In this document: positions 6,522 through 64,000 of the stretch, in pieces | Position numbering within the stretch: the stretch's first letter is position 1 | Layout: the number at the start of each line of letters is the position of its first letter | NCBI RefSeq assembly: GCF_009827545.1 | Contig: NZ_WTYS01000001.1 | Span: forward strand, 372,001-436,000 | Direction: 5' to 3' | Origin: Pontixanthobacter gangjinensis | Lineage (GTDB): Bacteria; Pseudomonadota; Alphaproteobacteria; Sphingomonadales; Sphingomonadaceae | Length of the DNA: 64,000 bases | Program-made: the position numbers and the translations under genes | Notes under the pieces: model-generated | Database searches by the model: none | Seen by the model: only the letters and a program-made list of their open reading frames with translations | Told to the model about the DNA's origin: nothing

Positions 6522-6559
6522 AAAAAGGCGGCCTAGTTCTTTGACTGGGCCGCCTTTTT
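6522..6559 (+). terminator. Rho-independent terminator after etfA
   Basis: Arms 6522-6537 and 6544-6559 pair over 16 positions with one G-T wobble and a 6-base loop (TCTTTG). The right arm ends in TTTTT. The A-run on the left arm means it could also act on the minus strand. Confidence 0.92.
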
Positions 6560-6613: not shown

Positions 6614-7495
6614 ATGTTCAGATCCATCCCAATAGCAATTTTCGCCGCAAGTAGTTCTGGTGTGCTCCATGCTGCTCCTCTTGAGCTCGAACCGACCTCG
6701 AAGTGGGCCTTAAGCTACGATGCGGAGGCCTGCCGTTTAGGCCGGATCTTCGGCGAAGGGGACGATAAGATCATTGCCCAGTTCGTCCGCTACATACCGG
6801 GCCCAGGCTTTGAGATGCTGGTATCGGGCAAGTCGATAGCGCCGAAGGGCAGAGGCTTTGATTACCGCTTCGCTCCAGGCGATGAACCAGGTGAGGCTCC
6901 TAATATCCTTTACGGGAAGTCGGATAATGGCGCGACGACATGGCAGTTCAGCACAGGTCTTGTCCCGCATGCAGAATATAAAGATATGGACATGGCCTCG
7001 CCCGAAGAACGCAAAGCGGCCATTGACCGTGAAAGCGAGCGGGCCGCAGAAATTCGTAGCTTCGATATCGTCAAAGGCGTGGAGCAGCCTGTCTCACTTC
7101 AGCTGGGCACACTGGAGGGAGCGATGAGGGCGATTAATACATGTATGGATGATCTTGTCCGCACATGGGGGTACGACCCTGAAGTTCAGCGGACCCGGAT
7201 TTCCGGACCCAAGCCGTCAAATAATCCCTCTCAGTGGATCAGAAGCAGCGGCTACCCGGCAGGGGCCTTGAGAAAAGGTTTGTCGGGATCTGTCCGGTTT
7301 CGCCTCGATATCGATCAAGAAGGCGTGGTCACCGATTGCATCATTCAGGAATCATACTCCGACCCCATTTTCCGCGACGCGACTTGTAAACTGATCAAAT
7401 CCCGCGCCAGCTTCGAGCCAGCAATTGGGGCCGATGGCAAGCCGGTGAGGTCCTATTGGGGCACTTCCGTCGTATTCGCTACAGCGCGCTCTTAA
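6614..7495 (+). CDS. Secreted protein with TonB-type C-terminal domain
   Basis: The 293-residue protein has a cleavable-looking signal peptide (about residues 1-20, ending VLHAA). A middle region of about 180 residues is not recognised. The C-terminal 90 residues resemble a TonB C-terminal domain: GYPAGALRKGLSGSVRFRLDIDQEGVVTDC, then a conserved-type Cys-Lys-Leu segment and FEPAIGADGKPV. Classical TonB proteins have a non-cleaved N-terminal anchor and a Pro-rich spacer; neither is seen here. It is therefore probably a free periplasmic protein with a TonB-like fold rather than an energy transducer. It stands alone between etfA and the convergent DUF445 gene. Confidence 0.72.
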   Translation: MFRSIPIAIFAASSSGVLHAAPLELEPTSKWALSYDAEACRLGRIFGEGDDKIIAQFVRYIPGPGFEMLVSGKSIAPKGRGFDYRFAPGDEPGEAPNILYGKSDNGATTWQFSTGLVPHAEYKDMDMASPEERKAAIDRESERAAEIRSFDIVKGVEQPVSLQLGTLEGAMRAINTCMDDLVRTWGYDPEVQRTRISGPKPSNNPSQWIRSSGYPAGALRKGLSGSVRFRLDIDQEGVVTDCIIQESYSDPIFRDATCKLIKSRASFEPAIGADGKPVRSYWGTSVVFATARS

Positions 7496-62024: not shown

Positions 62025-62143
62025 CAAAATGCCGCAAGCGCGCGGCCCGGGCAAGGGGCAGCGGCTGAATTATTTCAATTTATTGCGCGGCTTGCGGCAT
62101 TCCTGCACTTTGGAACCAGAGCCGAACCGTTAATAGCGCGAAA

Positions 62144-62872
62144 TTAGCCTTCGCTAGTGCCGTCAGCTTCCTCGGCACGCTTTGCTTCGAGCCAGGCCGC
62201 AGCTTCGGCTTCTTGAGCGGCTTCTGACACGGCTTTCTCAGCTGCATCGCGCTCTGCATGCAGTTCGGCGATCAGCTTCTCACGGTCGGTTGGACCCTTG
62301 GCCACTGGAACCTCATCAACCGCTTCTTCACCTTCAACAGGTTTGATGTTCTTGGCAGCCTTCGCCACCACCGCATCAAGCTCGCGCTGCGCGCACAGAC
62401 CCAAAGTGACCGGATCTTTCGGTTGGATATTCTGGATGTTCCAGTGAGTCCGGTCGCGAATCGCGTTGATTGTGTTGCGAGTGGTCCCGATCAATTTGGA
62501 AATCTGCGCATCGGAAATTTCCGGATGGTTACGTAGCAGCCAGTTGATGCCGTCAGGCTTGTCCTGACGCTTGGACACTGGCGTGTACCGAGGGCCCTTA
62601 GTCCGCGTCACTTCAACCGGCGCTTTTTGCATAACCAAGCTGTAAGTTGGATCGGCCTGACCCTTATCAATCTCTGCCTGCGTCAATTCGCCCGAATGGA
62701 GCGGGTCGCGGCCAGTAAATTTGCTGCCGGCAAGATCGTCCGCCATCGCCTGAACTTCCAAAATATGCAGACCGCAAAATTCCGAAATCTGCTCAAAGCC
62801 GAGCGACGTATTATCGATCAGCCAAGTGGCAGTTGCATGCGGCATCAGCGGTTTGGGCTGGGTTTGGGCCAC
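62144..62872 (-). CDS. trcR: TrcR-type cell-cycle transcriptional regulator (DUF1013)
   Basis: The 242-residue DUF1013 protein begins MAQTQPKPLMPHATATWLIDNTSLGFEQISEFCGLHILEVQAMADD. The conserved helix-turn-helix segment is GINWLLRNHPEISDAQISKLIGTTRNTINAIRDRTHWN (about 108-145). The C-terminal third is acidic, Glu/Ala-rich and probably helical. DUF1013 proteins associate with RNA polymerase and affect cell-cycle gene expression in Caulobacter. The start is GTG at 62872 with GGAGA 9 bases upstream. A terminator-like hairpin lies just upstream of it. Confidence 0.9.
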   Translation of the reverse strand: MAQTQPKPLMPHATATWLIDNTSLGFEQISEFCGLHILEVQAMADDLAGSKFTGRDPLHSGELTQAEIDKGQADPTYSLVMQKAPVEVTRTKGPRYTPVSKRQDKPDGINWLLRNHPEISDAQISKLIGTTRNTINAIRDRTHWNIQNIQPKDPVTLGLCAQRELDAVVAKAAKNIKPVEGEEAVDEVPVAKGPTDREKLIAELHAERDAAEKAVSEAAQEAEAAAWLEAKRAEEADGTSEG

Positions 62873-62890
62873 GATTTGAATCTCCGTAAA

Positions 62891-62920
62891 AATAATAGGG
62901 CCGCCCCTTTCGGAGCGGCC
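62891..62920 (-). terminator. Terminator-like hairpin just upstream of trcR
   Basis: On the minus strand, GGCCGCTCC (62920-62912) pairs with GGGGCGGCC (62907-62899) with one mismatch, closed by a GAAA tetraloop. CTATTATTTTT follows. It lies about 27 bases before the trcR GTG and 209 bases after the stop of the upstream oxidoreductase gene. Confidence 0.7.
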
Positions 62921-63128
62921 ACTTCATGGGTTGATCTAGGGCATCACCCGCAGTTCGGCAAGCTTTTACGCTGCCGCCTAATCTGGGGCCCCTCTTTAGT
63001 GGCGATTGGGTGGCATCCTAAAACCTAACAGATTCTGGCAACCGAGTGTAGGAAGATCGACAGTCCGGGTTTTGAGAACTTGAATTGCTCGCCTGCTGAA
63101 GCAATAATCTCCGTGGAGCGTTAGCCAC

Positions 63129-64000
63129 TCAGCCTTGCCCGACTTCCAGCACAATCTTTCCGATGTGATCACCGGCCTCCATGTGCGCGTGAGCAGCGCC
63201 TACATCGGCCAGGGCAAAAACCTGATCCATTTCGGGCCGAATTTTGCCGGTTTCGACTAACGGCCATGCGGTGCGAGAAATCTCGTCGCACAGCAAGGCT
63301 TTGAATTCGTCAGGCCTAGCCCGCAGGGTAGAGCCTGTCAGCGTCAAACGTTTGACCATGATCTGCGCCATATTCAATTCGGCCTGCATCCCGCCAAGCA
63401 CCGCAATTGTGATATGGCGGCCATCTTCCGCCAGACAGGCTAGGTTGCGCGTCACATAATCGCCTGAGACCATATCGAGCACCAGCTGGACACCTTTGCC
63501 AGCGGTGATCGTTTTAACTTCTTCAACAAAATCGGCAGCCTTGTAATTGATTGCGTGATCCGCGCCGATCGCCTTTGCCGCGGCGCATTTTGCATCATTC
63601 CCGCAAGTGACAATTACATCCAACCCGAATGCCTTGCCCAGTTTGATTGCCATCGTGCCGATGCCGCTGGTTCCGCCATGGACGAGCAATGTCTCACCTT
63701 CCCCCGCCCAGCCTCGTTCAAAGACATTGTGCCACACAGTAAACAAAGTCTCAGGCAGCGCCGCAGCTTCTGCCAAGGACAATCCATCAGAGACCGGCAG
63801 GCAATGCTCGATTTTGGCGAGGCAATATTCGGCATAGCCGCCGCCAGTCACTAGCGCGCAAACGCGTTGGCCCGTGGCATCCGGAATCACGCTCTCTCCG
63901 CTGGCAACGATTTCGCCTGCTATCTCAAGCCCGGGAATGGGCGAGGCCCCAGGTGGCGCAGGGTAATGTCCCATGCGCTGGATAACATCGGGACGGTTCA
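63129..64000 (-). CDS. NAD(P)H:quinone oxidoreductase, PIG3-like MDR family (5' end missing)
   Basis: The gene is cut by the right edge; about 290 C-terminal residues are present. The reading frame continues upstream of the Met at 63974 as NRPDVIQR, typical of the PIG3 family, so that Met is internal. Motifs: PIPGLEIAGEIVASG, GGYAEYCLA, LLVHGGTSGIGTMAIKLGKAFGLDVIVTCG (NADPH binding) and KPEMDQVF-like GKIRPEMDQVFALADVGAAHAHMEAGDHIGKIVL. No zinc-binding residues are seen. It is a soluble quinone reductase of the zinc-independent group. Confidence 0.9.
   Translation of the reverse strand, partial: NRPDVIQRMGHYPAPPGASPIPGLEIAGEIVASGESVIPDATGQRVCALVTGGGYAEYCLAKIEHCLPVSDGLSLAEAAALPETLFTVWHNVFERGWAGEGETLLVHGGTSGIGTMAIKLGKAFGLDVIVTCGNDAKCAAAKAIGADHAINYKAADFVEEVKTITAGKGVQLVLDMVSGDYVTRNLACLAEDGRHITIAVLGGMQAELNMAQIMVKRLTLTGSTLRARPDEFKALLCDEISRTAWPLVETGKIRPEMDQVFALADVGAAHAHMEAGDHIGKIVLEVGQG

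Follow-up and report, generated by a model that had tools for sequence, protein, structure and literature searches.

The trcR gene of Pontixanthobacter gangjinensis is preceded by a hairpin with a U-rich tail which, with moderate confidence, we read from its sequence and its relatives as a leaky intrinsic terminator at trcR's own start site, where it would set or regulate the output of the gene. The locus lies in a window of 64,000 nucleotides (contig NZ_WTYS01000001.1, positions 372,001 to 436,000), to which coordinates refer unless stated otherwise. The original prediction spanned 62873–63128, the whole gap between an oxidoreductase gene and trcR; the element itself, comprising promoter-like sequence, stem and tail, occupies 62962–62888 on the minus strand.

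A hairpin with a U-rich tail at the trcR locus

The downstream gene (62144–62872, minus strand), which starts with a GTG at 62872 and encodes 242 amino acids, was identified as trcR, a cell-cycle gene whose product moves along with RNA polymerase, by its match to PF06242 (E 1.2e-61, 207.3 bits against a cut-off of 22.2); the primary paper on TrcR is reportedly that of Delaby et al. 2021. On the minus strand, the sequence preceding it runs GGCCGCTCC-GAAA-GGGGCGGCC, then CTATTATTTTTA, ACGGAG and the GTG, with the terminator-like stem-loop at 62920–62899 consisting of nine base pairs, eight of them G-C, closed by the GAAA loop. The U-rich tract CTATTATTTTT (62898–62888, minus strand), as read from the sequence and from the family alignment, follows directly 3′ of the stem, and a likely ribosome-binding site, ACGGAG (62887–62882, minus strand), also read from the sequence, lies outside the stem by folding. 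A GAAA-capped stem with a T-rich tail had been proposed 27 bases before trcR, and folding and family comparison bear out the hairpin at a corrected distance of 26 nt.

The 22-nt stem-loop has an energy of −19.4 kcal/mol and the GC-rich, short-looped form, ~ 7–10 bp in length, of an intrinsic-terminator stem. T occupies 7 of the first 10 nt of the tail, as in the U-tract of an intrinsic terminator, but the tail is imperfect, as its first base is C and its T run is interrupted. The predicted leader (62927–62888) folds at −21.5 kcal/mol compared to −10.87 on average for shuffled sequences (z −3.65), and none of 200 shuffles was as low. A single-sequence scan of 3 kb returned 3 terminator-like sites compared to 3.7 in shuffles, which is no excess; such a scan is unconvincing alone because shuffles give as many sites, and it is the comparative data that convince. 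The exact trcR stem is present as a single copy in the genome of the window.

Conservation and specificity of the hairpin

Loci of trcR were compared across the Sphingomonadaceae/Erythrobacteraceae, referred to here as the family. A first set of 88 loci, drawn from the genus and named contigs, was reduced to 85 distinct loci by dropping three contigs present twice, and the hairpin was found in all 85. With 36 loci selected from further searches, deliberately including genomes without an exact pattern match, the set came to 121 loci, which are related and not independent, and among which some genomes may repeat named species. A stem of 8–11 bp is present at every one of the 121, and the loops are mostly GNRA (GAAA in 32, GCAA in 30 and GCGA in 25). 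In a diverse alignment of 45 rows, 99.8% of stem cells are paired compared to 37.5–64.2% in slid controls, and changes on both sides are seen at four of the nine stem pairs, in 15 cells that are not independent events. None of 500 shuffles reached these values, so that the covariation check suggested alongside the original prediction was positive. A G-U wobble as a constant rule of the stem was ruled out by its absence in loci L281 and L241.

The hairpin is also specific to trcR when compared to genes from the window and 20 arbitrary 20-kb stretches of family DNA, called by a simple ORF rule. A terminator-like hairpin within 110 nt of the start was found at 119 of the 121 trcR loci compared to 5 of 261 control genes, one of which is trcR itself; with a limit of 90 nt, 3 of 262 control genes had one. 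A covariance model (R1) of promoter and hairpin matched 84 of 86 family genomes, with the best match at trcR by comparison of positions by eye, these matches being in part by construction since the model was built from 40 of the 121 loci. The two genomes missed by the model, G340 and G428, have the stem in their trcR leaders all the same (L285 and L297). Taken with the covariation, these observations show that the hairpin before trcR is genuine and not a product of chance.

Beyond the family, the element is missing or found only sporadically. Among 241 genomes of the class, strong model matches were found only in the four that belong to the family, which rules out an element general across the Alphaproteobacteria. 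When trcR leaders from genomes of other families were scanned for terminators under permissive settings, 12 of 121 had one compared to 4 of 206 controls (p = 0.002), but five of the 12 come from one clade and several of the hairpins lie upstream of the likely promoter. By eye, unrelated start-proximal, terminator-like hairpins were noticed before trcR in a small number of other families of the Alphaproteobacteria (L154, L162, L208, L239 and L256). In an AT-rich clade of the order (L260, L261, L263, L272 and L274), a conserved hairpin, AAGGCCTTGAAAAG-TTTTTTTT-CAAGGCCTTTTC, lies 5′ of the probable trcR promoter.

A promoter-like sequence at a near-constant distance from the stem

Mapped promoters of the sphingomonad Zymomonas mobilis have the form TTGNNN, a 17-nt spacer and TANNNN, usually followed by a 6-bp discriminator (PMC7566282). 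The sequence before the trcR stem fits this consensus on the minus strand, with a −35-like element read as CTTGCC (62962–62957; hexamer TTGCCG at 62961–62956) and, 17 nt after TTGCCG, a −10-like element TAGATC (62938–62933). Given the usual Z. mobilis layout and discriminator, the predicted transcription start of trcR is at ~ 62926 (62925–62927, minus strand), which would place the stem from ~ +7. From these features we infer a sigma-70-type promoter immediately 5′ of the stem, with its start ~ 6–7 nt before it.

This arrangement recurs across the family, as scored by a promoter-pair search that is slightly biased toward a spacer of 17, weights the TA and restricts the gap to 6–22 nt. Under this scoring, CTTGCC is exact in 103 of the 121 loci, the spacer is 17 nt in 120 and the TA of the −10 is present in all. 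The gap from the −10 to the stem in the window is 12 nt by the TANNNN count, or 13 nt if the hexamer is taken one base earlier (CTAGAT), and it is 12–13 nt in 95 of the 121 loci, with a range of 9–18. The predicted promoter lies 5′ of the stem at all 121 loci, and so the terminator-like hairpin sits between promoter and gene, as in an attenuator. The tail is tied to the stem as well: positions 2, 3, 5, 8, 9 and 10 are T in 83–98% of the 121 loci and positions 11–16 in 0–21%, and 118 loci have at least six T in the tail. The distance from the end of the stem to the start codon, on the other hand, covers a range of 18–73 nt with a median of 32, so that the U-tract is fixed in position by the stem rather than by the start codon. 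A tail linked to the stem and a steady promoter gap, set against a variable distance to the start codon, indicate that the conserved unit is promoter, stem and U-tract. With this layout, transcription of trcR can hardly avoid crossing the hairpin.

GANTC is the site of CcrM methylation. It occurs just 3′ of the −35 in 28 of the 121 trcR promoters (e.g., L013, L017 and L276), lying 35–36 nt before the stem in 26 of these 28, and any GANTC was found in 13 of 345 control windows. The window promoter has none, and GANTC was rejected as a common feature of trcR promoters, since it is limited to these 28 loci, mostly from one lineage by contig names. Judging from these motifs, the trcR promoters of some lineages may be methylation-sensitive.

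Similar stems at the 3′ ends of genes

Near-identical stems elsewhere in the family genomes point to a terminator. Of 20 such copies examined, which were hand-picked and not random, 18 closely follow a stop codon. These ordinary 3′-end terminators share with the trcR copy the GGCCG..CGGCC stem and a T-rich tail, but they are placed 3′ of stop codons and their T tails are better, whereas the trcR copy follows a promoter-like sequence. By a T-tail scoring formula, the mean score was 1.90 at trcR (n = 121) compared to 2.97 in the other copies (n = 18; p = 4e-5), with L374, readable in both directions, and L379, which lies within a coding region, left out. This difference supports a trcR hairpin that would act as a terminator whose tail is weakened, a property that a leaky stop would require.

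Two further hairpins of the window were recorded. A second terminator-like hairpin (62031–62046, minus strand), between trcR and the next gene, which encodes an AMP-binding enzyme, probably marks the 3′ end of trcR. Another, at 6524–6559 on the plus strand, lies 55 nt before the gene starting at 6614 and ~ 20 nt after the preceding stop, and is probably an ordinary terminator of the preceding gene.

The same layout at rpmH

Weaker model matches led to rpmH (L34, PF00468), for which 30 leaders were read. A TTG-N16–18-TA promoter was called in 29 of these, a stem follows the promoter in 24 and the tail has at least five T in 21, with a −10-to-stem gap of 12–14 nt in 19 of the 24. The example L416 lies outside the window (G000:C1:849228–849310), and other genomes provide L434–L463. 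The rpmH leaders of the family thus have the same order as trcR, that is, promoter, 12–14 nt, GC stem, U-tract and gene, although their stem sequence and their −35, TTGACT, differ from those of trcR and their tail is usually stronger (CTTTT). Across 464 kb of family DNA, 3 of 31 terminator-like stems had a TTG-N16–18-TA within 60 nt upstream, at gaps of 10, 12 and 13 nt, and the stems at the last two gaps belong to the window's trcR and to an rpmH gene, the rpmH having been read from a shifted start of the listed ORF. This equal spacing at two unrelated genes suggests, as far as sequence can tell, a common mechanism that is linked to the promoter.

At rpsU (S21), a promoter-near, often bulged hairpin with T runs was seen (e.g., L425, outside the window at G000:C1:1184387–1184469), and in another genome a gene that we take to be rplM (L409) has a promoter-near hairpin with a T run. 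As a clear further member rpsU was rejected, since only two or three of 30 leaders pass the scan, though several have bulged stems and T runs. Seven rpmH, rpsU and rplM loci gave no Rfam match at gathering level, and a description of the rpmH arrangement was not found in the open literature searched.

Alternative roles for the hairpin

In ompA-type leaders, a stem at the 5′ end protects the mRNA from decay. The main rival to a terminator, which we regard as unlikely, is that the trcR stem shields its mRNA in this way. A stem near the predicted 5′ end, at a near-constant distance from the promoter and found also at a gene for a ribosomal protein, rpmH, would suit such a role. Shielding needs no U-tract, yet the U-tract is conserved relative to the stem; ~ 6 unpaired nucleotides would stay at the 5′ end, and these genomes use near-identical stems as terminators at 3′ ends.

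The hairpin might instead do no more than terminate transcripts of the upstream gene and insulate trcR, which would have another promoter. In the window, the upstream gene is a zinc-type oxidoreductase on the same strand as trcR (63129–63998, minus strand, cut by the window end), with its stop 208 nt before the stem, and the original prediction had considered that the hairpin only ends this transcript. Among 95 loci, an upstream gene on the same strand was called in 69, often ending 43–100 nt before the stem, these ORF calls being crude and several of the opposite-strand ORFs probably spurious. A dual role is possible, and the hairpin may also end upstream transcripts. The upstream gene varies, however, with clusters of 38, 17 and 8 among the 95 loci, of which the cluster of 17 is the oxidoreductase of the window and those of 38 and 8 are presumably glycosyltransferase-like and glutathione-transferase-like. 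As the upstream gene changes while the element stays, the element belongs to trcR; the conserved promoter-like sequence precedes the stem, and the stem-to-start distance, 18–35 nt in most loci, is too short for a promoter. A role restricted to the upstream transcript is thus disfavored and, in our judgment, improbable. The original prediction had added that the trcR promoter would otherwise be squeezed into or next to the hairpin, and the promoter-like sequence does abut the hairpin without lying within it.

Even less credit is due to the view that the U-rich RNA beside the stem enhances translation or serves as a standby site for ribosomes; such RNA does lie 5′ of the ribosome-binding site in the loci that were read, but the spacing of the U-tract is constant from the stem rather than from the start codon, and the ribosome-binding site is not within the stem. 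Finally, that the element encodes a tiny trans-acting RNA of ~ 37–39 nt and precedes trcR by chance is scarcely credible, for although promoter and terminator would make a complete small transcription unit, the RNA would be nearly all stem and tail without an unpaired conserved seed, and it adjoins trcR at 121 of 121 loci.

A proposed leaky terminator at the start of transcription

We return to the leaky terminator at the start site. A housekeeping-type promoter would fire ~ 6–7 nt before the stem, some polymerases would stop at ~ +37 and release a tiny RNA, and the remaining polymerases would read through into trcR, with the imperfect U-tract keeping the stop leaky. The original prediction had envisaged an upstream promoter and an attenuator-like hairpin in the leader, and its first half agrees with the conserved promoter-like sequence at near-constant spacing, but classical attenuation by competing structures is unlikely. 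If the predicted start is right, ~ 6–7 nt of RNA precede the stem, where an upstream antiterminator fold, sensor or leader peptide is not found and where there is no space for a competing structure, be it an antiterminator RNA, a riboswitch or a leader peptide. This lack of room for a leader-RNA switch favors control through the polymerase, and read-through would be controlled via RNA polymerase and bound factors (NusA, NusG or TrcR).

Several points tell against a terminator at the start site. The tail that starts with C and is interrupted could make termination weak or absent in vivo, and a plain terminator needs no tight promoter-to-stem spacing, yet such spacing is seen, at rpmH as well. 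The element is limited to one family, with sporadic look-alikes elsewhere, and both the promoter and the start are predictions from sequence.

Thousands of 5′ terminators have been predicted (Naville and Gautheret 2010, PMC2965389), and the main text of that study was found to contain neither DUF1013 nor sphingomonads. As in these premature 5′ UTR terminators, the trcR hairpin would separate the promoter from the start codon of the gene under control; known regulatory ones, however, allow an alternative read-through fold for which trcR has no room, and the trcR stem is more conserved than is usual for them (PMC2965389). No description of the trcR element was found in the open literature on TrcR/DUF1013, 5′ UTR termination and sphingomonad start sites. 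At the window locus, Rfam returned only a sub-threshold match, to the BjrC68 sRNA (RF02353), which is likewise a hairpin with a U-tail and matched weakly at full length. Homology to BjrC68 was rejected, as the match scored 21.2 bits against a gathering cut-off of 39 and better matches lie elsewhere in the same genome, consistent with a generic likeness to terminators.

TrcR is an RNA-polymerase-associated factor (PMC12864828; PMC10754441). This association makes autoregulation by TrcR via its own leader a natural and attractive hypothesis. More speculatively, and with considerable doubt, the Sphingomonadaceae may have a promoter-coupled start-site terminator, with the stem ~ 12–14 nt after the −10 and the U-tract at ~ +28 to +38, that a polymerase-bound factor can override; trcR and rpmH, and perhaps rplM and rpsU, would be members, growth and cell cycle would share an early checkpoint, and TrcR would control its own leader. 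If the trcR hairpin does act as a leaky stop, an RNA-polymerase-associated alphaproteobacterial factor would itself be gated by an early transcription stop, and the ~ 75-bp promoter and hairpin would provide a short natural template for a direct assay of TrcR activity, to stop or to pass. The geometry common to rpmH suggests a small early-termination class that would link growth and the cell cycle in this family.
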